DNA from: a virus
DNA: 26,679 bases
IMG/VR virus record: IMGVR_UViG_3300046488_000196
Span: 1 to 26,679 of that record
Strand: one strand, 5' to 3'
Position numbers and translations under genes: made by a program. The notes under the pieces are model-generated. The model was not told where the DNA came from and made no database searches. It saw only the letters and a program-made list of their open reading frames with translations. Below are positions 2,283 to 26,679 of this stretch, piece after piece; positions within the stretch are counted from its first letter, which is position 1; the number at the start of each line of letters is the position of its first letter.

Positions 2283-2576
2283 TTAATCGTTCTTTTCTTC
2301 TTCTGGTTTTTCTATAATATAAAGACGATATGGAATATGTATTGATTCTTTCGTGCCAAATTTCAGTTTTACCGCATTCAGAATATCTTCTTCAGTTAAA
2401 ATTGCTCCGCAGTAAAGATTTTTCCCTTCTAATAATTTATCGATCTGCGCCTGTACTATGTCTCTTTCAGTTTCCTGCTGCTTAACAAGCAAATTAAATT
2501 CCTCCCGGAGTTGCTTTGCTTTTTTCTCCGCGTCATCAATTTCATTAAGTTTCTTCTGCCTTTTCGAAATAGCCAT
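2283..2576 (-). CDS. Small coiled-coil protein of the tail-fibre region
   Basis: A 97-residue protein when started at the ATG at 2576. That start has AGGAGA just upstream; a longer reading frame exists but has no good ribosome site. Residues about 4-50 are highly charged and heptad-like (KRQKKLNEIDDAEKKAKQL, then EEFNLLVKQQETERD), predicting a coiled coil. A short C-terminal part ends in a charged tail. It sits between the baseplate-like protein and the first fibre gene, where small trimerisation or attachment proteins occur. Family not recognised; a role in fibre assembly is only a suggestion. Confidence 0.6.
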   Translation of the reverse strand: MAISKRQKKLNEIDDAEKKAKQLREEFNLLVKQQETERDIVQAQIDKLLEGKNLYCGAILTEEDILNAVKLKFGTKESIHIPYRLYIIEKPEEEKND

Positions 2577-2586
2577 CTTTATTCTC

Positions 2587-3138
2587 CTAAAAGTTTTTTG
2601 ATAACGGCATTCTTCCCCATAAACAATCACCCACCGCCTTATAAAAATAATCGTCGTCCCACGCCTCCATACCTTCAGTGCCTGAACTGTTATAATGCGA
2701 AGGCGGCGGCACTCTTCTTAAAGGAACTATTACATATCTAACCGCGTCCTCAGGTAGATCAGTTCCGTCATAAGGGCTCTGCACTGTCGGAATTATTGTA
2801 CAGGTCCCCATAAAATGCGTAGTCCCTGAGTTCAGATCATCGGGGATTTCCTCTAAAATATCATAATAATAGTTGCTCGCTGTTAGCCCCTCAGTATCCT
2901 CTTTAAGATAGAACATCTTAATAGTCAAAGTCCCGTCGCTGTATGTTACAAGCAGCTCATCATCGCCTCCGCCTGCAGCAGTGTTTTTCTTTTCTATTAC
3001 TCTCGAAGATGTTAACCCCTTGTCCGGCTTCACCACGAAAGTAAATTTGTTCGCTGTAGGATCTTCATCAACAGTTTTAACAAAGGTAATCGAGCCCTTG
3101 TTAAATCTTACAATCTCAATATTTTTTTCTATAAGCAT
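2587..3138 (-). CDS. Putative baseplate / distal tail protein (BppU N-domain-like)
   Basis: A 183-residue protein directly after the tape measure, sharing its start with the upstream stop (TAATG). The N-terminal half alternates beta strands (EIVRFNKGSITF, NKFTFVVKPDKG, DGTLTIKMFYLK) and reaches YYYDILEE and a GTCTIIPTV strand. This resembles the N-terminal beta domain of baseplate upper proteins of BppU type, which attach fibres to the tail tip. The family link comes from pattern and position only. A lambda M/L/K/I/J-like tail-tip set is not visible here, so this protein may take part in a simplified tail tip. Confidence 0.5.
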   Translation of the reverse strand: MLIEKNIEIVRFNKGSITFVKTVDEDPTANKFTFVVKPDKGLTSSRVIEKKNTAAGGGDDELLVTYSDGTLTIKMFYLKEDTEGLTASNYYYDILEEIPDDLNSGTTHFMGTCTIIPTVQSPYDGTDLPEDAVRYVIVPLRRVPPPSHYNSSGTEGMEAWDDDYFYKAVGDCLWGRMPLSKNF

Positions 3139-6100
3139 TATTGTTTACTCCGCTTCATTCTGCCAATTCCTTTAGAAGTTATCCGCCGGCATTCATCATC
3201 ACCAATCGCAACTGGCAAAGATGATACCCTGCTCATAATAGTATTCATGTCAGTTCTTAACCCCTGCAATTCTCTTGTCAGCTCAGCATTGTCATTTCTT
3301 AAAATGTTATTCACTGAATTTGAATATGAATACCCGCCGGCATATCCACCGCCTGAAAACTTATTTGCATTTATAATTTCTAATAAATTCCTGTGCCTTT
3401 CAGTAGCTGCTGCGTTCACAATAAATTCCCTGTTTGAAATCCTTGCAAAAATACTGTCACTTGTTCCCGATCCGGGGCCTTCAATAAGCCCTTTCGGTCT
3501 GAACATCATGCCTAGTATCACGCCTGGCAAACCTCCTACCGCGAACTTTGGAGCCTCCTGAGCTGATATCGCCGCCACATTAGCAAGTCCCGCCGCTATA
3601 GTCATCGCCGCTAATATTGGTCCCATTAAAGGACCTGCACCCATCGGTGGCGGTGCCAGAGCCGCCGCAGCCGCTGTATAAGTATTTACCATGGCACTTG
3701 CTATGCCCGCCGCTTTCTGTAACGCAAAAGCCAGTTTAATCCTTTCCTGCCCCTTTTTATTTGCTTCCTCGTCTATCTTATCTTTTTTCTTGGCAAAGTC
3801 ATCTTCTATCTTTTGTTTCTGCTGGTCCGTCCGTGCGCCGGCAAGAGCTGCTTTCTTCTGAATGTCCAGTTTATCGGTCTCTGTTTTCCTGTAGCTATCC
3901 GCTTCAGCTTGCCCCTTTGCCTGCTGCATACTCATAAGTGAATTAGCGCCCGCTTCAAATTGTCCAAGCACTTTCTGCATCGATTCAATTTCGCGCTGAC
4001 TTAAACCCGCAAGTTGACCCAGCCAGACATCATAATATTTTCTTTTTATTTCAAAAAGTTTTTCCTGGTGCGCTTGCAGCATTTCCGTTTCAATGTCATC
4101 TTTCTGCTTTCTGGTTAATAATACATCCTCTTCTATCTTGTCATGGTCATCTTTATATTTTTTTTCTTCATCTAATCGTTCAGCATTGTAGTCGTCATGA
4201 CCTCTGTTTGCCTTGCTTATTTCGATATCATATTTAGCGTCACGGGATCTCTGTATCATCCTCTTAGCCGTGTTCTCTTTATCAACGTCATTCATTTCAA
4301 GCTGGTGCCTCAGCTCCTCCACCTTTTCCGCCTGTCCAAACTCAACTGCTAAATCGATTTCCTTTTCTAAATAAGATTCCTTTAATAATAATCTTTCCAT
4401 TTCCCCGGCATTCTCAATCTCCATTCTTTTGGAAATCATTTCCTCATCATAATTCAGTTCCCTCTGACCTGCATCGAACCTTAACTTATCTTCCTCATTC
4501 TGCTGCTTCTGAACATCAAGTTTCCATTCATTCTTCTTCTGATTAGAAATAACAGGAAACTCCTTCTTCTTTGGATCCTTATCCCATTCCGCGCTTTGTT
4601 TCTCAACCTCCGCCATAATCTGAAGCATCGCTTTCAGCTTCGCTTCCTGTATCTCAATTTTATCCCCGCCGGCTGCTTCAGTCTTTACTTCCGCCTCTTT
4701 TACTTTGTCCTTCATCAGAGTATCGATACTCTTTTCAAGTTCCTCTCTGACTTTGAAGCGTCCCTTCTGTTGCTGCGACTTTGTTTTGAAATCGTCAATC
4801 ACTCCCTTGCCGTTCCTCACCACCATCTGATCAATCGCCGCCCATTTCGTATCGATTAAAGAATACATATCTTTCACCTGGTTCAGCGCGTCCAGATCCA
4901 TTTTTGTATCTTCCTTCAGATACTCCAGCCCTGTTCCGCCCGTTTTCCCATACCGCGTCTTGCTCAGCTCGTCAATCCTTGCCTGAACCCTCTTGCTTAA
5001 ATCGCTTCCTCTTACTAGTTTCCCGTTTATCTCTCCCAGCTCTTTTACTATCTTGTCAACCGCGTCATTTGTCAGCCCATCTGTAACTCTCTTTATTAAA
5101 TTCTCCGCAGTCACTTCCGGTTTTTCGGCATTCACGTTCTCATTAATCTTATAACTGTCAAATTTCTTTTGTGCCTCATCAACTTTTTTCTGCGCATCAG
5201 TTAGTGCATTATTTGCCAGGCTGCTCGCGGATGGCACTCCGCCCGGTGTCATTTTTATATCTGCTGCATACCCTGAAAGAATTGTTTCTTCTTTTCTCCC
5301 TGTATTATTTTTATCTGCCTCTTCCTTTTCTTTTTTCTTCTGGTCCCTGTCATGTTCCGCTTTCACCAATTCGTCTGAAGCTTCCTGCATCAGTTTTTCC
5401 CTTGAACGCATTTTAATACGTTCTTCAAAAAGCTCGTTCCCGTGTTCAAGAATTTTATTTTTCTCTGCTTCAGTCAGGTTCTCAAGTTTGCTCTGTCCTA
5501 TATATTCCGGGAAATTATCGGATAATTTTTTAGTGGCATCACCCCGCTCCTGAACACTTTTTGTCGAGTCTTTTATAATAGCAGATAAAGATTTATATTC
5601 TTTCTGCTGCTTCCTTAACTCCTTTTCCTCCTCGCTCCACCCCTTATCGCTATTAGCAACGGTATCGTTTAATAATCCCCAAACGGTAGCGAGTGCGGTA
5701 ATTCCAATTACAGCCCATCCTATCGGCCCCATACTAGCCCAGAAGCCCTTTGTCGCAACCGCCGCCTCATAAGCCGCAAGTGTCTGCGCCTGCTCAGCAA
5801 CGGTCATTTCTTTCGTCATAATTATGTTTTCAAGCTTCGCCACTTTATTTGCCCGCAAACCAAAATCATACATAAGCAGGTTCTTTATAGTCGCTCCAAT
5901 CCCCGTGGCGTTTAATATTCCGTATGCCATGGTAAGCTCTGTGGTCAGCATAATCCCATTTTTAATCGGAGCCGGCAGCTTATCGAATGCGTTAAACATA
6001 TTGCTTAACCCGGTCACTAATGGCTGGACTGCTAACAATTGCATTTCCCCTGCCTGCCTCTGGGCATCCTGCAGGGCATCCTTTGCCTGCTTTACCTTGA

Positions 6101-6800
6101 AAGCATCAGTCTTCTGGATCTCTTCGTTTACATCTTTATATTTACTTGCCAGGATGGATAAAACGTAAGACCGCATCTCATAAGCTTTCCCCTCCTCCTC
6201 CAGGGTTTTAATATGTTCCATTTCGTCGGCGCTCATCTTAAGCCCCAGCTTATTCAGAGCCCTCATCCCCTCCGCTCCCTGGTCAAGCGCCTTTGCCAGT
6301 GCAATGGTTGCGCCTCTTAAATCCAAACCTAGCACCTGCGTCAAGCCCATGGCTGCTTGCGTGGCTTCATCAATCGAACTGGCACCAATATTCTTGAATG
6401 TCAGAAAATATCTTTGAACCTGCAATATTTGGTCCCGATCGAACATGGAGCTTTTTTCAAATCTTTCCGCCGTCATCGCCATCTGTTCCGCGCTTATCTG
6501 GCTGTCCTTCCCGCCGGATCTTATAACACCATTCAAAGTGGCAAGTGATAACTGGTATTCAAGAGCCTTCTTAATCCCGGTCCCGAACACCCCCTCCAGC
6601 ATTCCCCATGCCTGCTGCGCTCCCTGCCCCAAATTCCTCATGTTCTGGAATGAACCAATAAAATTATCAGACATTGACCTCGTTGCCTGGTCAGCCTTCT
6701 TAACGGTGTCCACAATCTTCTGAAGGTTCTTGTCAGTTGCCTCCAGGGAAACATTTCCCGTGGTCCCGTCAATCGATAATTTTATGAGTATCTCATCCAT
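3138..6800 (-). CDS. Tail tape measure protein
   Basis: At 1220 residues this is the longest gene of the window. It sets tail length in siphoviruses and is thought to leave the tail during DNA entry. The N-terminal 300 residues are helical with patterns seen in tape measures. A hydrophobic stretch lies near residues 355-380 (SMGPIGWAVIGITALATVWG). A long charged coiled-coil centre follows, then an Ala/Gly/Pro-rich hydrophobic region near 1050-1100. The C-terminal part has PKFAVGG, GPGSGTSDSI and REFIVNAAAT, which are typical of tape-measure C-termini. It starts by TAATG overlap with the GT frame. By the usual proportion of about 0.15 nm per residue, the tail would be roughly 180 nm. Confidence 0.92.
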   Translation of the reverse strand: MDEILIKLSIDGTTGNVSLEATDKNLQKIVDTVKKADQATRSMSDNFIGSFQNMRNLGQGAQQAWGMLEGVFGTGIKKALEYQLSLATLNGVIRSGGKDSQISAEQMAMTAERFEKSSMFDRDQILQVQRYFLTFKNIGASSIDEATQAAMGLTQVLGLDLRGATIALAKALDQGAEGMRALNKLGLKMSADEMEHIKTLEEEGKAYEMRSYVLSILASKYKDVNEEIQKTDAFKVKQAKDALQDAQRQAGEMQLLAVQPLVTGLSNMFNAFDKLPAPIKNGIMLTTELTMAYGILNATGIGATIKNLLMYDFGLRANKVAKLENIIMTKEMTVAEQAQTLAAYEAAVATKGFWASMGPIGWAVIGITALATVWGLLNDTVANSDKGWSEEEKELRKQQKEYKSLSAIIKDSTKSVQERGDATKKLSDNFPEYIGQSKLENLTEAEKNKILEHGNELFEERIKMRSREKLMQEASDELVKAEHDRDQKKKEKEEADKNNTGRKEETILSGYAADIKMTPGGVPSASSLANNALTDAQKKVDEAQKKFDSYKINENVNAEKPEVTAENLIKRVTDGLTNDAVDKIVKELGEINGKLVRGSDLSKRVQARIDELSKTRYGKTGGTGLEYLKEDTKMDLDALNQVKDMYSLIDTKWAAIDQMVVRNGKGVIDDFKTKSQQQKGRFKVREELEKSIDTLMKDKVKEAEVKTEAAGGDKIEIQEAKLKAMLQIMAEVEKQSAEWDKDPKKKEFPVISNQKKNEWKLDVQKQQNEEDKLRFDAGQRELNYDEEMISKRMEIENAGEMERLLLKESYLEKEIDLAVEFGQAEKVEELRHQLEMNDVDKENTAKRMIQRSRDAKYDIEISKANRGHDDYNAERLDEEKKYKDDHDKIEEDVLLTRKQKDDIETEMLQAHQEKLFEIKRKYYDVWLGQLAGLSQREIESMQKVLGQFEAGANSLMSMQQAKGQAEADSYRKTETDKLDIQKKAALAGARTDQQKQKIEDDFAKKKDKIDEEANKKGQERIKLAFALQKAAGIASAMVNTYTAAAAALAPPPMGAGPLMGPILAAMTIAAGLANVAAISAQEAPKFAVGGLPGVILGMMFRPKGLIEGPGSGTSDSIFARISNREFIVNAAATERHRNLLEIINANKFSGGGYAGGYSYSNSVNNILRNDNAELTRELQGLRTDMNTIMSRVSSLPVAIGDDECRRITSKGIGRMKRSKQ

Positions 6801-7552: not shown

Positions 7553-8068
7553 TTATTCGTTCAGGGTTGTTATTAAATATTTGACAAGTCTCCCGGCTTT
7601 ATATACTTCATTAGCCAACACCACTTTAAGCAGTTGTAAGTTTTTTCTTAATATCTGATAATTCGTATTCTTCCCCGCTCCCCAGGTTATCTTATAAAAC
7701 TTTTCGTAAGACGTTGAATCAATATCTCCTGATTTCTCTATTACAAGAGGTTCCGTTTCCCAGGTCGTATCCACCGCAATGTTCTGACTGTTATATCCGA
7801 TATAACCTGCATAGAATTTCAGACTGTCGGTAACAAATGCCCCGGTGTCTTTAACCGTGAAACTTATGTTCTTATAGCTCAGAGCAAAATTATATACCCG
7901 CGTTGTATCGCCGGCTTTCACGCTGTCGGTCTTTGTCTTCCCAAACCCTACTGTCATCCATCCGGTGCTGGTTTGCGGATATGTTTCTTTAATCCCTGAT
8001 AATACAATCAGGGAGAAAATTGTAAAATAAAAAAGTTTGACTCTGGAAATATTGAAGACGGTTTTCAT
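7553..8068 (-). CDS. Secreted/exported phage protein of unknown function
   Basis: A 171-residue protein when started at the ATG at 8068. A longer frame from 8167 runs through a tRNA gene and is rejected. The N-terminus has basic residues, then a hydrophobic core (LFYFTIFSLIVLSG, about residues 12-25), then a polar mature part, as in a Sec signal peptide or membrane anchor. The mature part is beta-rich (SYKNISFTVKDTG, DSLKFYAGYIGY). It sits between the tRNA and the tail chaperones. In general design it resembles the secreted protein at 16453-16938, so the two could be distant paralogues. Function unknown; surface exclusion or a periplasmic role are possibilities. Confidence 0.65.
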   Translation of the reverse strand: MKTVFNISRVKLFYFTIFSLIVLSGIKETYPQTSTGWMTVGFGKTKTDSVKAGDTTRVYNFALSYKNISFTVKDTGAFVTDSLKFYAGYIGYNSQNIAVDTTWETEPLVIEKSGDIDSTSYEKFYKITWGAGKNTNYQILRKNLQLLKVVLANEVYKAGRLVKYLITTLNE

Positions 8069-8100
8069 GATGTTTTTCCCATTAAAATTATTTTTACTTG

Positions 8101-8173
8101 TAGCGGCGGTCAGACTCGAACTAACAAACTCCGGGTTATGGGCCCAGCGAGGTACCAATTCCTCCACGCCGCG
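8101..8173 (-). tRNA. Initiator-type tRNA-Met (anticodon CAT)
   Basis: A full cloverleaf of 73 nt: acceptor 5' arm CGCGGCG with 3' arm CGCCGCT, D-stem GAGG/CCTC, anticodon stem CTGGG/CCCGG with loop CCCATAA, T-arm GTTAG TTCGAGT CTGAC, discriminator A. Hallmarks of a bacterial initiator are present: no Watson-Crick pair at 1:72 (C and U), G2:C71, C3:G70 and G4:C69, A11:U24, and three consecutive G:C pairs in the anticodon stem. Position 33 is C instead of the nearly universal U. The 3' end continues CAA, so CCA is not encoded. It lies between the tail tube gene and a secreted-protein gene, inside the late region. Confidence 0.9.
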
Positions 8174-10347: not shown

Positions 10348-10881
10348 TTATTTTCCTTTAATCGAATGGTATTTACCAAGTACCTCATCTGCATACTTGC
10401 CTGATAAATCCCCGTTCCAAAAACCCAGCATCTTCACAATGTTAGGTCCTGCCATCTCTCTTTTCTTCGATAACCACTTGCAGCCGTATGTAATCTGATC
10501 CATTAAGTTCTCACAGTAATCGTCAATAGCTTTCACAACTGCTATTTGAGAAAGTGGGCTTCCTAATAATTGTTGAACCGCCTGGGTCTGGCAATTAAAA
10601 TAATCCTCAAAATATCCTGCCAGCCTTAATGATTCCCCCATCATCTGTGTAACGCCGTAAGAAGCCGCTAACAGGATCTCCGTAGTCGTTGGTAGATTCT
10701 GTTTTTCGGTATATCTTGAATAAAATCCGTTTTCCAGTCGCGCTCTGTCAGGAGCAAAACAGCCGTCCTTTTTTCTTCCTCCTTCCTGAAGACATAAAGC
10801 CTGTACCAACTCAACTTCGAAATTAAAAGAAGGGGCAACTCTTTCACACGCGTCAAACACCTGTTCTCTGGTAAAAATCAT
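10348..10881 (-). CDS. Endolysin, lytic transglycosylase/lysozyme-like
   Basis: A 177-residue soluble protein. ALCLQEGGR near residues 28-36 holds a candidate catalytic Glu (E33). ARLENGFYSRY near 47-57 and AASYGVTQMMG near 72-82 match the order of motifs in goose-type lysozymes and soluble lytic transglycosylases (E, then E.G.Y, then S.G..Q). The enzyme would cut the glycan strands of peptidoglycan. No signal peptide is seen, so it needs the membrane proteins encoded upstream for release. Its start overlaps the putative holin stop as ATGA. Confidence 0.72.
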   Translation of the reverse strand: MIFTREQVFDACERVAPSFNFEVELVQALCLQEGGRKKDGCFAPDRARLENGFYSRYTEKQNLPTTTEILLAASYGVTQMMGESLRLAGYFEDYFNCQTQAVQQLLGSPLSQIAVVKAIDDYCENLMDQITYGCKWLSKKREMAGPNIVKMLGFWNGDLSGKYADEVLGKYHSIKGK

Positions 10882-11309
10882 TTTGATGCCTCGGTTATCG
10901 ATGAAGAAGTTTGTTTTATCTCTGTTAAGACAGTGGTAGCTTGTCTCTCCACATTCAGGAACCGCTTAAAGAGTTGGTCACTCCCCAGGTAAGTAACAGA
11001 TGCCGTACCGAAATAATCGATACAACCAGCCCATGGTTGATGCAGAAGGTTTCCGCTTATTGACATAATAATCAATTTCATTATTCCAACATCGAAAGCC
11101 CAGCAGCAGAAAAGTGCAATCGCAAAACTCAATACCGGAAATGATTCGCTCTTTAAATCTTTATTGTTTACCAATGCACCCCATAAGCCCTTTACTAGTC
11201 CCAATAATCCAATCGCGGATATCCCTTTTACAACTTCAATTATTGAAGTAATAAATACTGAAAATATCGCAAGTTGAATAACTGTTATAAATAATCTATT
11301 CCAATCCAC
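10878..11309 (-). CDS. Putative holin
   Basis: A 143-residue membrane protein starting with GTG at 11309 (AGG upstream). Hydrophobic segments lie near residues 5-24 (LFITVIQLAIFSVFITSII), 30-48, 58-80 (FPVLSFAIALFCCWAFDVGI) and possibly just after, and the C-terminus is polar. It is ATGA-coupled to the endolysin gene, and this coupling plus the topology is the main support for a holin. The C-terminal tail (QATTVLTEIKQTSSSITEA) looks like a short coiled coil. No holin family is claimed. Confidence 0.6.
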   Translation of the reverse strand: MDWNRLFITVIQLAIFSVFITSIIEVVKGISAIGLLGLVKGLWGALVNNKDLKSESFPVLSFAIALFCCWAFDVGIMKLIIMSISGNLLHQPWAGCIDYFGTASVTYLGSDQLFKRFLNVERQATTVLTEIKQTSSSITEASK

Positions 11310-11316
11310 TTTCTAC

Positions 11317-11616
11317 CTACTTTGATAAAATTTTAAGAGTCCCAATAATGCTTATAACGAAATAGACAAATCCGATAAAACCTAGCGCGACTTTAAAAAC
11401 CTTGCTAAACGCAAACGATGGACTCAGTTTGTTGTAAATAAGTTGATCAAATTCCTTTCTCTTGAATATGATATTATTATCTCCGCCATCAATTATGGGA
11501 ACGTTTTCCAGTTCTTCTTTAACTGATTCGAGTGTTGCTGTAATTTTGTCAATCTTATCCTCAAGGGAACAAGTCATTGCGCAATCAGGCAAAGATGGTT
11601 TATTTTGTTCTGGCAT
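11317..11616 (-). CDS. Small C-terminally anchored membrane protein of the lysis cassette
   Basis: A 99-residue protein with a polar, helical N-terminal part (EDKIDKITATLESVKEELEN) and one C-terminal transmembrane helix (ALGFIGFVYFVISIIGTLKI, about residues 77-96). It starts shortly after the FII-like stop and is followed 7 bases later by the putative holin. Small tail-anchored proteins in such places include holins of hemolysin-XhlA type and holin regulators, and the coiled coil plus terminal helix resembles XhlA. This is a position- and topology-based suggestion. Confidence 0.55.
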   Translation of the reverse strand: MPEQNKPSLPDCAMTCSLEDKIDKITATLESVKEELENVPIIDGGDNNIIFKRKEFDQLIYNKLSPSFAFSKVFKVALGFIGFVYFVISIIGTLKILSK

Positions 11617-11617
11617 C

Positions 11618-11935
11618 TTAGTTGTCCGTCGTTAATAGTAAAATGGATAATCCCGTTTCATCAGGAGGACGAATTTCTTTTATATAAAAAACTGTCGCGC
11701 CTATTGTAATCTTTCTGCCTTTCTCCACGCCTTCAACTTCAGATCCTAAACAATGAAATTCCGGCTTGCTTACAGAAATAGATACCTGATTCATTCTTGA
11801 AGTCTCGTCCGCCGAATAAAACAAACCCCTGACTATAACAGCCGGAGCTCCCGTTTCTAAGCTCTCAAGAACGCCGTCTTTCCCGGTGTTCTTGTCTCTC
11901 ATCATTGAAATATATGCTCGTTCGTATAATGACAT
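11618..11935 (-). CDS. Head-tail joining protein, FII-like
   Basis: A 105-residue protein after the capsid genes. It alternates strands and turns and ends in ITIGATVFYIKEIRPPDETG and LSILLLT, the pattern of lambda gpFII-type attachment proteins (a 'G..I.i....y.I..i..D..G...l.L' ending). Such proteins sit at the bottom of the connector and provide the site for tail docking. Length is close to that of gpFII (about 117). The ATG has only AAGAA upstream. The next gene begins one base after the stop. Confidence 0.62.
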   Translation of the reverse strand: MSLYERAYISMMRDKNTGKDGVLESLETGAPAVIVRGLFYSADETSRMNQVSISVSKPEFHCLGSEVEGVEKGRKITIGATVFYIKEIRPPDETGLSILLLTTDN

Positions 11936-11975
11936 TTCTTAAATCAGGTTTAATAAATTTGAAAATAAAAGTAGT

Positions 11976-12002
11976 GGGGACAGAAACTTAAGCCCTGCCC
12001 CC
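11976..12002 (-). terminator. Hairpin plus T-rich tail after capsid-adjacent gene
   Basis: On the transcribed strand GGGGGCAG pairs with CTGTCCCC (8 bp, one G-U) around an 11-nt loop, followed by ACTACTTTTATTTTC. The flanks AAGTAGT and ACTACTT can extend the structure with a bulge. It lies 12 bases past the stop of the 73-residue gene and before the connector gene, so it can act as a terminator or attenuator between head and connector genes. Confidence 0.6.
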
Positions 12003-12013
12003 TTTAATACTAC

Positions 12014-12235
12014 TTAAGTCTGTGGAGTCCCGGGAACAGCCGGATCAGATTCTTTCGCGTCTTTCCCGATTACAATGGTACCGCCGCTTGCAAGAAGTTG
12101 CGATTTATCATTACCGGAAACTTTAACAACCGCGCCTTTGTCGTAAAGTTTTACAGCCTTTGCGCCTTCCACTTTTACGCGGGTTGCTCTTGAAAGCTTT
12201 ACGAATTCAACTTTTTCAGGATCATATTTAGCCAC
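12014..12235 (-). CDS. Small capsid-adjacent protein (possible head decoration/completion)
   Basis: A 73-residue protein with GTG start at 12235 and AGAGG upstream. It has a beta-rich core with YDKGAVVKVSGNDKSQLLAS, like the many short phage proteins placed directly after the major capsid gene that have a 'G..v.V....A..L...G.A' core. The C-terminus is Pro-rich and probably flexible. Hairpins lie on both sides of the gene. It may be a minor head protein; the decoration role is only inferred from the gene order. Confidence 0.5.
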   Translation of the reverse strand: MAKYDPEKVEFVKLSRATRVKVEGAKAVKLYDKGAVVKVSGNDKSQLLASGGTIVIGKDAKESDPAVPGTPQT

Positions 12236-12292
12236 TTTAAGCCTCTACTAAATTTATTTTTGAATATTTTCGTTTACACCAATAAAATGACA

Positions 12293-12318
12293 TGCGGTCC
12301 CCCGGAAGGGAAACCGCA
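12293..12318 (-). terminator. Hairpin downstream of major capsid gene
   Basis: TGCGGT pairs with ACCGCA, with inner CCC/GGG pairing and a short loop, 12 bases past the capsid stop. The transcribed strand then runs TGTCATTTTATTGG. This may be a leaky terminator or a 3' stabiliser that raises capsid mRNA over downstream genes. Confidence 0.45.
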
Positions 12319-12329
12319 ATCAGAATAAA

Positions 12330-13640
12330 TTAATTAACACCTTCCGCAATTGAGATTGCTTCAGGATGTTCAGCCATTACGTTCATGGCTATGTTCGCTT
12401 TCACCTGGATATCGCCTGCAGCCCAGCCTGATCCCCATGGATTAGCTTCTACAAGTATATAACCCCATAACAACAGGACAAGGTTCGACCAGCCGCCGTA
12501 GAACAGATCGCCTTCGTCTACCTGGTTGCTTTCTTTTACTGGTCTTCCAACCATTACGTTATTGTCATCGCATAAGAACGAAGGATAGTTTGCTGCTATC
12601 TGTTTTTTCTGCAATGTTCCAACGGTAACCGGGTTAGCAACAAAATTGAAAGATCCGATCTCTGCATTTGCGGCTTTGATCGCCTGGCGCATGTCGATAG
12701 CACTGTCACGGTTGAATCCTCCGCCTAGTATTCCGTGCGGACCTGTCATGTTTACGAATCCAACCGGCTCAACTCCGCCGGCACCGTATGCAATCGTTCT
12801 GTCCATTCCTCTCATTACTGCACCAAGTAGTTTCCTTCTTGCCCATGCCTCTGAAACATTAGGAGACTGCAATAACATCTGTCTGGAGATGGATGTTAAT
12901 GATCCGCCTAATTTAGGATCATAAGTTTCTTTGGTGAATGTAACATCAGATGAATCAGGAGCTACTGTTTCAAGCTTGAAAGAAAATGTATGCTGGTTTG
13001 CTTCTCTTACTAACGGAATTGTTCCGCTAAGATTATCAAGAACAGTAACGCCGGCGTTAACAAATGCGAGCTGGTTATGCAGATATTCAACAAAGGTCTG
13101 TGGAACAGGAGTTTCGAATATGGTCAAACCTCCAAGTCCCGGAGTCCCTGCTACCTGGGCTCTCTTGGTCCCGAAACCGAAAGCGGATGTTGGAACTAAA
13201 AGCCCATTCCCGATATCCCTTCCGATCAGTTTTTGAATATGCTCATGCATTTCTCTTTCAATACCCAGCTTTGCGAATGCTGAACGGTCACTCATTGAAA
13301 GTATAGCTCTTGCAAGTCTATAATCCTTCATGTCCTTTTCGTCCGCACCGCCGTGCGCGTCAGCAGTCCTGGTTGCTTCAGGATCATGCATTTTCCCTGA
13401 ACAGAAATCATAGAACTCCTTGAAGTTTTTATCTTCACGGATATATTTCTGCCCCTCTGCCAATACATCAATGCCAGGCAGATTACGTTGAAAATCACCA
13501 GCCAATTGAAGAATGCTAGCGGCATTGTCGATAGCTCTCTTTTTTTCGGCTTCTGTTTTTTCCTTCAGTTCCTTATCCCATTTTTCCCTTAAAAGCTTTT
13601 CGGCTTCTTTCTCTGCAGCGGCTATTTCTTCCGGTGTCAT
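12330..13640 (-). CDS. Major capsid protein, HK97 fold
   Basis: A 436-residue protein. Residues about 2-60 are charged helix (EIAAAEKEAEKLLREKWD), like the scaffold-like delta domain removed during maturation. From about residue 145 come capsid-type motifs: GNGLLVPTSAFGFG, PQTFVEYLHNQLAFVNAG, then SRQMLLQSPNVSEAWARR and YGAGGVEPVGFVNMTG, in the order seen in HK97-like capsid proteins of the Phage_capsid family. The C-terminus (GWAAGDIQVKANIAMNVMAE) fits the last strand and helix. The start has GGAG upstream. It follows the protease directly. The protein forms the icosahedral shell. Confidence 0.9.
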   Translation of the reverse strand: MTPEEIAAAEKEAEKLLREKWDKELKEKTEAEKKRAIDNAASILQLAGDFQRNLPGIDVLAEGQKYIREDKNFKEFYDFCSGKMHDPEATRTADAHGGADEKDMKDYRLARAILSMSDRSAFAKLGIEREMHEHIQKLIGRDIGNGLLVPTSAFGFGTKRAQVAGTPGLGGLTIFETPVPQTFVEYLHNQLAFVNAGVTVLDNLSGTIPLVREANQHTFSFKLETVAPDSSDVTFTKETYDPKLGGSLTSISRQMLLQSPNVSEAWARRKLLGAVMRGMDRTIAYGAGGVEPVGFVNMTGPHGILGGGFNRDSAIDMRQAIKAANAEIGSFNFVANPVTVGTLQKKQIAANYPSFLCDDNNVMVGRPVKESNQVDEGDLFYGGWSNLVLLLWGYILVEANPWGSGWAAGDIQVKANIAMNVMAEHPEAISIAEGVN

Positions 13641-16452: not shown

Positions 16453-16938
16453 TTAATCTTTCTTTGCGATATAAATCCAGACTTCCTTATATACATCTGC
16501 CCGGTTTCCCGCTTCACCAACTGATTTTATTCTGTAGTATGGAAATTTATATGAACTGAATGTTGTTAACGTTGTAATCTGCAAAGTCTCCGCGCTGTCG
16601 GCAACTGTCTCAAGTGTATCTAAAATTAAAGCTACATCTTCAGCATTAAACGATGCCTCTATTGTCGTAGTTACGTGCGGCTTGGCAGTGGTACTTGTTT
16701 GCAGAATCGCTATTGTCGGCGGATAAGTAACAAACGATTGATCATCATAATCAGCCATCGTAAACCAATCCGAGCTTACAGTAGCGGTACTGTCTATATC
16801 CGTCCCCTGGTATAAAAGCAGTCCTCCCCCGGCTCCCAGCTTCGTTTGCTTTACAGTTGTGGTTTGCGCATCGGCTGGGAAAGTCATTAAAGAAACAAGC
16901 ACTAAAAGAAACGCGAAAAGTAACCCTGTGGTTTTCAT
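16453..16938 (-). CDS. Secreted protein with Sec signal peptide, function unknown
   Basis: A 161-residue protein with a classical signal peptide: Lys at position 2, hydrophobic core LLFAFLLVLVSLMTF, and an ADA-Q cleavage site near residue 24. The mature part (137 residues) is Thr/Ser-rich and beta-like with no Cys. The ATG has GGAG at good spacing. Its neighbours are head-region genes. The C-terminal pattern, a tyrosine/valine strand then YKEVWIYIAKKD, is faintly similar in design to the exported protein at 7553-8068. The product probably acts in the periplasm or on the outer membrane of a Gram-negative host; no family recognised. Confidence 0.65.
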   Translation of the reverse strand: MKTTGLLFAFLLVLVSLMTFPADAQTTTVKQTKLGAGGGLLLYQGTDIDSTATVSSDWFTMADYDDQSFVTYPPTIAILQTSTTAKPHVTTTIEASFNAEDVALILDTLETVADSAETLQITTLTTFSSYKFPYYRIKSVGEAGNRADVYKEVWIYIAKKD

Positions 16939-23756: not shown

Positions 23757-24929
23757 TTAATCTGAATATTTAATGATAAAATCGTTCACATCCTTGGTGG
23801 GAAGTTTTTTAAGCTTTATCTGTTTTTTATGCTCTCTGAAATAATTACTTAATTTACTTATCAATGTTTTTCCCGCCTCATCATCGTCACCGATTATTAC
23901 GATATCATATTTTAACAATTTTGCCATTTGTTTTTCATCCGGCATATTTCCAACCCCGGGTATGCCTATAGCATTTCTGCGCAAGCTCTCGAGAGCAATA
24001 ACATCCATTTCCCCTTCTACCAGGTATAATTTTTCTCCGGAGATCCCGGTCAAAAAGAAATCCGAATTATAAAATCTTCTTGGACTATTAAGATTCAGCT
24101 GATCGTTTTTCAATCCCAGGTATTTACCGGATTTACTATCCTCCGGTACCTTGCTAAACTTTTCAAAGAAATACCTGCCTCTCAAATAGATAATTGACCA
24201 GTTCCACATATATGGGATTATTATCCGATGAGAATAAAAAATTAAATTCCCGTCACCATTTTCTTTAGTATTAAAAAGCCCGCTTCTTTGAAGGTCCTTA
24301 ATGTTGAACGTTTTTTTCATATGATTGTTAACCTGGCTATAATCCTTTATGGAGAATAGTCGGAATAGCTCAATAAAATATGGATCAAGTTTTCTTATCT
24401 TGATCAAATAATCATATGCATCCGGGTCCCATCCTTTCTCCGTACAATAACAGAATAATTCAAGAAATATTTTCTTATTCATCTCCAGCCGTTTCATCTT
24501 TACTTCTTTCAATGCAATCGATTCGTCCGCAATTGATAACCGTTCATTATAAAGCTCCAATTCCTCTTTACTTAAAGCCTCCTTATAATCAGTTCCCTTT
24601 GCAGCTGGAGCCGGTCTATTTAATTCCCGGGGAGAAACGTTCTCTCCTGATATATTGAACATCCCGGCCAGCTCTTTAATCGCGGTGCCGGCATCCAGGT
24701 TATATAATGCCATATAAAGATCGATAACACTTCCACCCTTCCTATCTGCAGTCCCGTAATCGCACCATGAATTTGTATCCGTAAAGATCTTGCATGATGC
24801 AGTCTTTTCCTGTCTTAAAGGTGATTTTATGAATAAGCTTCTACCGGTCCCGGATTTCTCTAAACCCAGTCGATCTATAAGATCAACTATCGAAACTTTA
24901 TTCTTTATTTCGCTTACCAGGTCAACCAT
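23757..24929 (-). CDS. DNA primase, DnaG/TOPRIM type
   Basis: A 390-residue protein. The N-terminal 95 residues keep the layout of the CHC2 zinc-binding domain (VDLIDRLGLEKSG, LFIKSPLRQEKTASCKIF, WCDYGTADRKGGSVIDLYM) but have only C46 and C56 there, so the usual zinc site is degenerate. The C-terminal TOPRIM part has YLVEGEMDVIAL (about 302-313) and IIGDDDEAGK (about 345-354) with the expected acidic residues. It would make RNA primers for the phage helicase encoded next. Its ATG lies 8 bases inside the end of the reverse transcriptase gene, a coupling that ties the DGR to the replication operon. Confidence 0.87.
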   Translation of the reverse strand: MVDLVSEIKNKVSIVDLIDRLGLEKSGTGRSLFIKSPLRQEKTASCKIFTDTNSWCDYGTADRKGGSVIDLYMALYNLDAGTAIKELAGMFNISGENVSPRELNRPAPAAKGTDYKEALSKEELELYNERLSIADESIALKEVKMKRLEMNKKIFLELFCYCTEKGWDPDAYDYLIKIRKLDPYFIELFRLFSIKDYSQVNNHMKKTFNIKDLQRSGLFNTKENGDGNLIFYSHRIIIPYMWNWSIIYLRGRYFFEKFSKVPEDSKSGKYLGLKNDQLNLNSPRRFYNSDFFLTGISGEKLYLVEGEMDVIALESLRRNAIGIPGVGNMPDEKQMAKLLKYDIVIIGDDDEAGKTLISKLSNYFREHKKQIKLKKLPTKDVNDFIIKYSD

Positions 24930-25920
24930 TTGAAATTATACTTCCTATTTTTCCCATGAACTTTCCAGAGCTACAATGCTTGCATAATCCCTGCAAGCTT
25001 GCCAATGATTTATTTACTTTATCCGGACTCGCGCCGGCCTTATTAAATTTCCTAAACTTTTTAAGATTCTTTACCATCACTCTTTTCCTAAGTATCCTGA
25101 CACCGGGGAACTGCCTGTAACCCAGAAAATCAATCCCGCGTTTAATGCTAAATATTGAAGTCTTCTTATTAAGCACTAACTTCAATTCCTTTTCAATGAA
25201 GTTCCTGATCTCAGAAAGCCATCTCCATAATTGCTTTTTATCTTTGTATAGAATAACCATGTCGTCCATATATCGCACGTAGTATTTAATTCTCAATGTT
25301 TCCTTTATAAAATGATCCAGGTAGTTCATATAAATGTTAGCGAACAACTGCGAAGTCAGGTTACCAACCGGAATACCCGGGTTGTCAGTTGAATCAATAA
25401 TTATATTTAGCAGTTTCAGCGTCCGCTTGCATCTGATTTTTCTTCTTAGAAATCTCTTAACCGTTTCATGGTCAATCGAATAAAAGTATTTCTGAATATC
25501 CATCTTCAGGCAGAAAACTTCCTTTGAGTCTTTAATATTTTGTTTTAGAAAATATTCCATTCTTTTCACGCCGGCCAGAGTACCTTTATTTTTCCTGCAT
25601 GCATAAGAATCCTTGATGAAGGTTTTCTCAAATAGCGGCTCTATAACAGAACAAATTGCCTGGTGAACCACTCGATCCCGGAATGGAAGAGCCAGGATTA
25701 ACCTTTCTTTTGGATCCGTGACTAAGAATTCATTATAACGAGATGGAGTATATGCCTCATATATCAGCTCGTTCTGAATTGTTATAAGATTCTCTTCCAG
25801 ATTGCTAGTGAACTCCAAAACATCATTTTTATACCGCTTATTCTTTCTTGCCTTCAAATATGCCTGGTGAAGATTATCGAAACTATAGATCCTTTCATAT
25901 AAATTATTATAAGTCTTCAT
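24922..25920 (-). CDS. Diversity-generating retroelement reverse transcriptase
   Basis: A 332-residue protein when started at ATG 25920 (GGAGG eight bases upstream); a GTG at 25935 is a poorer choice. RT motifs in order: EFLVTDPKERLILALPFRDR (about 64-83), FIKDSYACRKNKGT (101-114), LKMDIQKYFYSIDH (138-151) with catalytic Asp, GIPVGNLTSQLFAN (182-195), YYVRYMDDMVIL (213-224) with YMDD, and RGIDFLGYRQF (261-271). SQ in GNLTSQ is the mark of DGR enzymes; group II intron enzymes have QG..SP. No maturase or endonuclease domain is present. It copies the TR RNA with errors at adenines for transfer to the VR. The 3' end overlaps the primase gene. Confidence 0.95.
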   Translation of the reverse strand: MKTYNNLYERIYSFDNLHQAYLKARKNKRYKNDVLEFTSNLEENLITIQNELIYEAYTPSRYNEFLVTDPKERLILALPFRDRVVHQAICSVIEPLFEKTFIKDSYACRKNKGTLAGVKRMEYFLKQNIKDSKEVFCLKMDIQKYFYSIDHETVKRFLRRKIRCKRTLKLLNIIIDSTDNPGIPVGNLTSQLFANIYMNYLDHFIKETLRIKYYVRYMDDMVILYKDKKQLWRWLSEIRNFIEKELKLVLNKKTSIFSIKRGIDFLGYRQFPGVRILRKRVMVKNLKKFRKFNKAGASPDKVNKSLASLQGLCKHCSSGKFMGKIGSIISNG

Positions 25921-25989
25921 TAAAAGGTCCTCCACGCGGTATTATCCAGTATATCGGTTACTAACCGCATGGAAGAACAAGAATATTTT

Positions 25990-26008
25990 TGACGCTGACT
26001 TATCGTCA
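25990..26008 (-). ncRNA. Hairpin in DGR TR-RT spacer
   Basis: TGACG pairs with CGTCA around a 9-nt loop, downstream of the template repeat. In the studied Bordetella phage BPP-1 DGR the RNA behind the TR is structured and primes cDNA synthesis. This hairpin could be part of such a structure. The stem is short. Confidence 0.45.
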
Positions 26009-26039
26009 CGGTCTTTATCTCCTTTTGTTCATTGCTCAC

Positions 26040-26061
26040 TTTCAATTCCTTGAAATTGAAA
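26040..26061 (-). ncRNA. Perfect 8-bp hairpin directly behind the template repeat
   Basis: TTTCAATT and AATTGAAA form a perfect 8-bp stem with a 6-nt loop, 17 bases past the end of the conserved TR core. Its position agrees with the structured spacer RNA that DGR reverse transcriptases need for priming. No coding role: the frame across it belongs to the TR read-through. Confidence 0.55.
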
Positions 26062-26078
26062 TTCCGGCATAAAATAAG

Positions 26079-26208
26079 AGCCACACGGAAACCTATGTTG
26101 TTGTTCCTGATGTCGCGTTCGTTGTTCAGGTTCAGGTTGAACAGACCGGCGTTGTCTTGGTTGTTCCAATTGCCGCCGCGGATCGGTATCCGATTTTGCA
26201 GACAAGAC
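26079..26208 (-). repeat. DGR template repeat (TR)
   Basis: The adenine-rich template lies between avd and the RT gene. In the sense of the target protein it reads as a run of AAC codons (NWNNQDNAGLFNLNLNN, then RDIRNNNIGFR), the typical design of a DGR template, because mutation of AAC reaches many amino acids and never a stop. It aligns without gaps to the VR at the right window edge with an offset of 519 bases. The 15-base GGTTTCCGTGTGGCT at 26079-26093 is identical in both and marks the region where the initiation-of-homology sequence lies. The right end is uncertain since the matching VR part is outside the window; it may begin at the avd stop. Confidence 0.92.
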
Positions 26209-26538
26209 CTACCTTGCACTTTTTATCCATCCCCCTAGCATCTTGCCAATTTCGGTAAGCTGCCTGGACAAAATTTCATACTGTTTTAATTTCAGGAGCT
26301 GCAGATCTTTTGCGGCTCTTAATTTGAACCGCAAAAGATCGAGTTTTACATCTGCTTCATATAAATATTTCTTCTTGTACTGTGATTTATTCGCAGTCAG
26401 GAAGAGTGACAGCATTTCAAAGAACTCGTTTCTGATATCTGCTGCCAAAACAAACTTTTCCGATTTCGGGAAGTAGTTAAGCGCGTTATGCAGATATTTA
26501 AAGCAATCGCTTGCTTTCTCAATAATTACCAGTTCCAT
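26209..26538 (-). CDS. avd: DGR accessory variability determinant (Avd)
   Basis: A 109-residue, basic, all-helical protein. Four amphipathic helices are readable: CFKYLHNALNYFPKSEKF, IRNEFFEMLSLFLTANKS, EADVKLDLLRFKLRAAKDL and KQYEILSRQLTEIGKMLGGW. Size, helix layout and the closing GGW match the four-helix-bundle Avd proteins, which form a pentameric barrel and bring the RT to the template RNA. It lies between the VR and the TR exactly as in classical DGRs. The TAG stop comes at the start of the template repeat. Confidence 0.9.
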   Translation of the reverse strand: MELVIIEKASDCFKYLHNALNYFPKSEKFVLAADIRNEFFEMLSLFLTANKSQYKKKYLYEADVKLDLLRFKLRAAKDLQLLKLKQYEILSRQLTEIGKMLGGWIKSAR

Positions 26539-26585
26539 ATATCCAAACCATCCTAAAAATTAAAAACAGAGGACCAGAGAACAGA

Positions 26586-26679
26586 TTACAGAACAAAAGC
26601 CACACGGAAACCTACGTCGATGTACCTGAGGTCGCGTTCGTCGGTCAGGTACAGGTAGAACAGACCGGCGCTGTCTCGG
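26586..26679 (-). CDS. DGR target protein, C-terminal end (partial)
   Basis: The last 30 codons and TAA stop of a gene that enters from the right edge. The peptide starts RDSAGLFYLYLTDERD and ends VGFRVAFVL. An ending in GFR..F or GFR..L is usual for the C-type lectin / formylglycine-generating-enzyme fold that carries variable residues in DGR targets. The whole visible part is variable repeat. In phages such targets are mostly tail-tip adhesins; this cannot be decided here as the N-terminal part is missing. Confidence 0.9.
   Translation of the reverse strand, partial: RDSAGLFYLYLTDERDLRYIDVGFRVAFVL
26598..26679 (-). repeat. DGR variable repeat (VR), partial
   Basis: Gapless match to the TR. 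In the 67 bases at 26613-26679 there are 11 differences, each at a TR adenine: A to G five times, A to T four times, A to C twice. All 41 non-adenine positions are unchanged. The 15-base GGTTTCCGTGTGGCT follows without change. Further on, differences also occur at other bases, as expected where mutagenic copying does not reach. Confidence 0.93.

Follow-up and report, generated by a model that had tools for sequence, protein, structure and literature searches.

Of the steps by which a diversity-generating retroelement (DGR) works, the least understood is how its mutagenised cDNA reaches the target site and is taken up there. In BPP-1, the cDNA is made from TR RNA with errors opposite adenines and replaces the VR starting at the IMH. 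The end of a viral contig analysed here raises the question of what, in the DNA just 3' of a VR, marks that repeat as the recipient. The window, i.e., the whole stretch of 26,679 bases, is the complete IMG/VR record IMGVR_UViG_3300046488_000196, and its right end falls inside the VR. In the literature, the VR recipient is defined by the IMH together with a GRNA-loop hairpin, and the interval of 4–34 bp between the VR and the hairpin is treated as a spacer (PMC3240598). A perfect stem of at least 5 bp with a loop of 3–14 was found in the 70 nt after the VR neither in the window nor in its two closest relatives, L003 and L005. What stands there is a periodic array of four short words. The original prediction missed both the array and the absence of the usual hairpin.

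The retroelement at the end of the window

The features of the element are listed below in the order in which they follow on the minus strand.

26598-26679 (-): VR; 5' part cut off by the contig end; all 11 mismatches with TR lie at adenines
26586-26679 (-): 3' end of the target gene; 30 codons and a TAA stop (26586-26588); translation RDSAGLFYLYLTDERDLRYIDVGFRVAFVL followed by the stop; the gene runs past the contig end
26567-26592 (-): periodic array TCTG-TAA-TCTG-TTC-TCTG-GTCC-TCTG, enriched only after VRs of related DGRs
26589-26592, 26582-26585, 26575-26578, 26567-26570 (-): the TCTG copies of the array, spacing 7-7-8
26209-26538 (-): avd, accessory variability determinant; 109 aa; NF033474 2e-35, PF22296 1.5e-29, phrog_3206 7e-36
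26079-26183 (-): TR; the alignment with the VR covers 26079-26160; the 5' limit, 26183, is deduced by comparison with L003 and L005
25928-26080 (-): structured DGR spacer RNA, from TR to RT; Rfam RF02921 RT-14
24922-25920 (-): DGR reverse transcriptase (RT); 332 aa; start ATG 25918-25920; GNLTSQ and YMDD motifs

The RT matches the profile phrog_1423 with an E of 1.6e-131; among solved structures, the Bordetella DGR RT comes closest to it (8ub7_A, 2e-58). The catalytic motifs VGNLTSQ and YMDD are intact and fit the (I/V/L)GxxxSQ and YxDD patterns of the DGR clade. Avd scores above the curated cut-offs (121 bits vs. 80 for NF033474, 103 vs. 40 for PF22296) and also matches Bbp7/Avd structures. 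These profile matches and intact motifs bear out the predicted classical order of Avd, TR and an SQ-type YMDD RT behind the end of a target gene. The span originally given for the element, 25920-26679, takes in avd, TR and VR and leaves the RT gene outside. Judged by its sequence, the end of the window is shown to be an intact phage DGR, with target-VR, avd, TR, spacer RNA and RT in this order.

At an offset of 519, VR and TR can be compared over 67 positions (26613-26679), comprising 26 TR adenines and 41 other bases. Mismatches occur at 11 of them, every one at a TR adenine (A to G in five cases, to T in four, to C in two), and the recount agrees with the earlier figures. If base identity were ignored, the chance of all 11 falling on adenines would be 6.0e-6 over these positions and 5.5e-7 over the 82 nt reaching the end of the identical block. 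The VR has changed at A positions only, with neither a frameshift nor a stop. The claim that the element has rewritten its VR is confirmed by this bias, which is repeated in 86 of the 106 related loci fetched by RT, a count that is descriptive only because the pairs were selected for A bias. Announced as direct evidence of mutagenesis, one TR/VR pair in one genome is rather strong comparative evidence.

The identical IMH-proximal run of TR and VR is 17 nt long (26598-26614), not 15 as first counted. Past it the repeats differ by C/T at 26597 and A/G at 26594. Since both recur in L003 and L005, they represent a fixed IMH*/IMH difference, and A/G is not counted as mutagenesis. These shared differences uphold the proposed IMH/IMH* boundary, which lies where VR and TR end on their 3' side.

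The RTs of L003 and L005 are 75–76% identical to that of the window; full target genes are present in both, and their VRs also differ from their own TRs at adenines. Relatives with identical TRs were compared as well: L013 and L017 have 18 VR differences, 18/18 at TR adenines, and L073 and L087 likewise 18, with 17/18 at TR adenines. Such pairs show VR change that appears to be ongoing. L004 and L005, considered as a population pair, turned out to have identical sequences and are uninformative. Given the differences at adenines in relatives and the identical-TR pairs, the window DGR adds one more ordinary member to a well-known family and is probably active. It is most improbable that it is an inactive relic: the usual hairpin behind the VR is indeed missing, but RT, avd, TR, spacer RNA and IMH are all intact, the changes in the VR are confined to A positions and leave its frame open, and the two relatives share the hairpin-less layout (at 75% RT identity) together with rewritten VRs of their own.

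The spacer between TR and RT covers the whole RF02921 model above the gathering score, with nothing notable that differs, and 7 of 10 relatives tested match it as well. Its fold has a z of -3.8 against shuffles, and compensatory changes are seen at 20 of 23 predicted consensus pairs across 12 loci. The spacer RNA has been reported to recruit RT-Avd (PMC12875486), and the window spacer agrees with this published role. An open frame spanning the TR (25920-26219), 75% identical in L003 and L005, was considered as a protein and rejected. Within the spacer, substitutions fall evenly over its three codon positions (7, 8, 8 and 7, 8, 9 of 51), which indicates that its conservation is that of RNA and not of a coding sequence.

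Since the record ends inside the VR, the target gene is present only as 30 codons and a stop. The complete L003 target, of 999 aa, combines a GDSL hydrolase domain with a C-terminus that is FGE-sulfatase-like (PF03781, 8e-6); that of L005 has 389 aa, a signal-peptide-like N-terminus and no domain match. A check for the C-type-lectin (FGE-sulfatase-like) fold thus had only the last 30 codons to go by in the window, and found PF03781 in L003 and nothing in L005. The two targets (L003 4335-7334, L005 6158-7327) carry the same C-terminal VR domain on quite different N-termini, and the DGR cassettes of these relatives are near-identical (RT 94% identical). The cassette and the VR domain look as if they had been moved between target genes. 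Signal-peptide-like starts (e.g., MKNIIKMSLLIILLISGFANAQ) are seen at 16453-16938 and 7553-8095 (-) of the window and at 2538-3026, 5638-6156 and 6158-7327 of L005, the last being the DGR target. With such starts on phage proteins, it may be that some DGR targets here are not virion fibres but proteins destined for export.

As for the phage itself, a megablast comparison of its body with named phages gave no match, and a search for the same phage elsewhere by the exact TR or by A-to-N TR patterns gave none either. At 24922-24929, the end of the RT gene, with its stop, is shared with the beginning of a gene for a DnaG-like primase (23757-24929), and the DGR sits directly upstream of replication genes. 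A tRNA-Met gene (anticodon CAT) at 8100-8173 (-) lies among phage structural genes. In L003, a gene at 10842-13307 (-) beside the phage encodes a C-terminal sorting domain of type IX secretion (PF18962), a hint that phages of this lineage have hosts from the Bacteroidota/Ignavibacteria group.

A periodic array behind the VR

On the sense strand the window reads ...GGTTTCCGTGTGGCT-TTTGT-TCTG-TAA-TCTG-TTC-TCTG-GTCC-TCTG-TTTTTAA, and the first linker, TAA, is the stop codon of the target gene. The same register is found in L003 (TCTG-TCC-TTTG-TAT-TCTG-GTTC-TCTG) and L005 (TCTG-TCC-TCTG-TTC-TTTG-GATC-TCTG). Nowhere else in the window, on either strand, do four or more NYTG words follow one another at 7/8 spacing.

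The statistics of the array come from 61 regions downstream of VRs, with less than 70% identity between any two of them; the first 60 nt behind each VR were used, and expected counts were taken from dinucleotide shuffles. Four or more NYTG words chained at 7/8 spacing are present in 37 of the 61 regions vs. 0.14 expected, and three or more in 46 vs. 1.4. Chains of either length are absent from the 60 nt after the TR of the same loci (0/61 for at least four) and from the 60 nt upstream of the VR (0/59); between 60 and 120 nt after the VR, at least four words are found in 0/61 regions and at least three in one. The distances between NCTG pairs peak at 7 (68 vs. 2.3 expected) and 8 (47 vs. 2.4), with further peaks at 14–16 and 21–23. 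Between nearest neighbours, 15% of the cells have changed at YTG positions vs. 37% in the linkers, the pairs being not fully independent.

The array was also sought blindly, as the exact pattern TCTG-N3-TCTG-N3-TCTG-N4-TCTG, in 2.9 million viral contigs, and a site was scored if a DGR RT lay 0.3–1.5 kb downstream on the same strand. This was the case at 37 of 88 distinct sites, and at 31 of 82 sites for the clade variant ACTG with the same 7-7-8 spacing. Of the two controls, TCTG at 9-9-10 had a DGR RT at 0 of 84 sites among the matches listed and TGTC at 7-7-8 at 0 of 12. Raw match counts were dropped as proof of specificity: the 9-9-10 control gave at least 120 matches too, so that only RT adjacency is taken as informative. 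Among the 51 of 88 TCTG sites with no DGR RT in the contig sequence, some follow VR-like peptide ends and others are plainly background. The VR-like peptide was discarded as a criterion: with 4 of 12 controls scoring positive, it proved too loose.

On these sequence comparisons, the array is shown to be a conserved, register-dependent DNA element, specific to VRs. No description of it was found in the openly accessible DGR literature searched, and its novelty is therefore provisional.

Distribution of the array and the hairpin

Of 65 related regions, 43 have the hairpin; as a rule its loop is of the GRNA type and it lies 30–50 nt after the VR. The array and the hairpin occur together in 31 of the 65; 19, including the window, L003 and L005, have the array only, 12 the hairpin only and three neither. 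Like the array, the published target-site hairpin/cruciform lies 3' of the VR (PMC3240598); the array is distinct from it and stands between VR and hairpin. The hairpin behind the VR is a feature of a subset of DGRs and is not required for DGR membership. A near-perfect 15-nt inverted repeat within avd of the window (26304-26340, GATCTTTTGCGGTTC AAATTAA GAGCCGCAAAAGATC, z -6.8) was considered as a replacement for it and rejected, being not conserved in L003 and L005.

The array occurs across Bacillota, Pseudomonadota and other hosts. It is present in 50 of 64 loci with an Avd homologue vs. 0 of 7 without (Fisher p 9e-5, confounded by RT phylogeny), and 14 of the 64 Avd-type loci, YPCBV-1 among them, have no clear array. 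Among named phages that bear Avd, it is found in BalMu-1, FP_Lagaffe, Dulem virus 37, VP58.5 and VHML. The cassettes of the first three have the gene order and Avd of the window and NYTG arrays behind the VR, at an RT identity of about 38–45%; BalMu-1 and Dulem virus 37 differ from the window in having a hairpin after the array. The words themselves vary: ACTG belongs to the RT clade with L071, L077, L095 and L100, and TTTG/CTTG to a Vibrio/Aeromonas clade. Arrays of phiARM81mr and ACA1 are in TTTG/CTTG/ATTG versions; phages of Aeromonas and Pseudoalteromonas, and in part those of Vibrio, have NTTG words, while TCTG is kept in Bacillota loci. In YPCBV-1, Pseudomonas phage Bise and the Helicobacter ganmani prophage the hairpin is present and a clear array was not found; in the latter two the hairpin begins within about 15 nt of the VR. 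Bacuni F1, with two VRs, has at most an array remnant, behind one of them.

In the checked multi-target phages that carry the array, it is repeated behind every VR. L084 has two VRs (4891 and 11817) with about 7 kb between them, and behind both come a four-word array and a hairpin; linkers and stems differ between the copies, and the second VR is not followed by avd. Three more contigs with at least two VR-like ends (IMGVR_UViG_3300010163_003536, 3300037400_000491 and 2859142826_000001) have an array behind each and a hairpin in most copies, and their diverged copies are identical at 36–48 of 70 positions. In phage nd12, the first VR is internal to a coding gene, and the array register is kept behind it, in frame within that gene (7913-7950, TCTT-AAA-TCTT-CTA-TCTT-GGTA-TCTG, 7-7-8).

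The DGR of BPP-1 (mtd-avd-TR-brt) shares with the window the gene order, Avd, the SQ/YMDD RT, adenine-only VR changes, a TR-RT spacer RNA of about 150 nt and the IMH/IMH* contrast, and holds the best solved RT and Avd relatives. Unlike the window, it has a GC-only 14-mer, a 21-bp IMH and, 4 bp past the IMH, a GRNA-loop hairpin of 8 bp. Where the window has a regular four-copy array and no hairpin, the NYTG series of the 21-bp IMH is only partial (TCTG-TGACCA-CCTG-ATT-CTTG), and CCTG is lost from the TR copy of this IMH (IMH*). This suggests that the 21-bp IMH could be a degenerate version of the array. Homing of BPP-1 with such a partial series, together with the 14 Avd-type loci noted above, indicates that the array is not universally required.

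Possible readers of the array

The conservation, position, spacing and specificity of the array are read from the sequence, and from them we infer its function and its reader. With good confidence, we regard the locus as an intact DGR whose array acts in cis as one component of the homing target, most likely read by RT-Avd. The DNA just 3' of the VR would then be no passive linker. The array would be recognised in a sequence- and spacing-dependent manner, most likely by the DGR's own RT-Avd complex; it would mark the VR, and not the TR, as the recipient and position the cDNA at the IMH. RT-Avd is favoured as the reader since the word variant tracks the RT clade and not the host. In the window and its two closest relatives, the array would do so without the usual GRNA-loop hairpin.

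The main rival is a host DNA-binding or nicking protein that reads the array in place of the DGR proteins. The endonuclease and processing steps of cDNA integration are still unassigned (PMC3240598, PMC12875486), which leaves room for such an enzyme. This reading is unlikely, however, as the choice of word goes with the clade of the RT and not with the phylum of the host, and the array spans Bacillota, Pseudomonadota and other hosts.

Less likely still is that the CTG words are DNA primase starts on the lagging-strand template, placing an Okazaki primer beside the IMH for cDNA joining. DnaG of the E. coli type starts preferentially at CTG. DGR homing is also more efficient when the strand complementary to the cDNA is the lagging-strand template (PMC12875486). 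Nevertheless, the arrays of Aeromonas, Pseudoalteromonas and some Vibrio phages have NTTG rather than CTG words, the exact 7–8 nt spacing is not expected of primase starts, and BPP-1 DGR editing was unchanged by over-expression or weakened recruitment of DnaG, a result that its authors call inconclusive (PMC12875486).

It is very doubtful that the array is a leader or a translation/transcription signal of avd that stands after the VR by chance. In most loci, including the window, avd does begin 30–60 nt past the array, but remote VRs with no avd behind them carry arrays of their own (L084 at 11817 and the other two-VR contigs), which refutes this as the sole reason; besides, the nd12 array lies inside a coding gene, and a hairpin stands between array and avd in many loci. 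A neutral simple-sequence tract left by slippage or repeated retrohoming would fit the short, repetitive look and the A/T-rich linkers of many loci, yet is hardly credible, as the linkers vary within and between loci (TAA/TTC/GTCC in the window, TCC/TAT/GTTC in L003, TCC/TTC/GATC in L005) while the words and the 7-7-8 register persist, also in unrelated phages, and the nearest-neighbour comparison (15% vs. 37%) disfavours it.

Taking the array as a part of the homing target read by RT-Avd, one may tentatively go further and suppose that Avd-type DGRs in general share a four-word NYTG array of 7-7-8 spacing between the IMH and the hairpin, read in register by RT-Avd, perhaps with one word for each protomer of multimeric Avd, as the mark of the recipient, with the 21-bp BPP-1 IMH as a degenerate form and the window's lineage as a case in which the array alone is the address. 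We consider this wider proposal possible, and put it well below the reading of the locus itself. An array behind the VR and absent behind the TR would explain the asymmetry between donor and recipient. With it, remote VRs can be sought by their DNA sequence alone, and it may offer a design rule for aiming DGRs at chosen genes.
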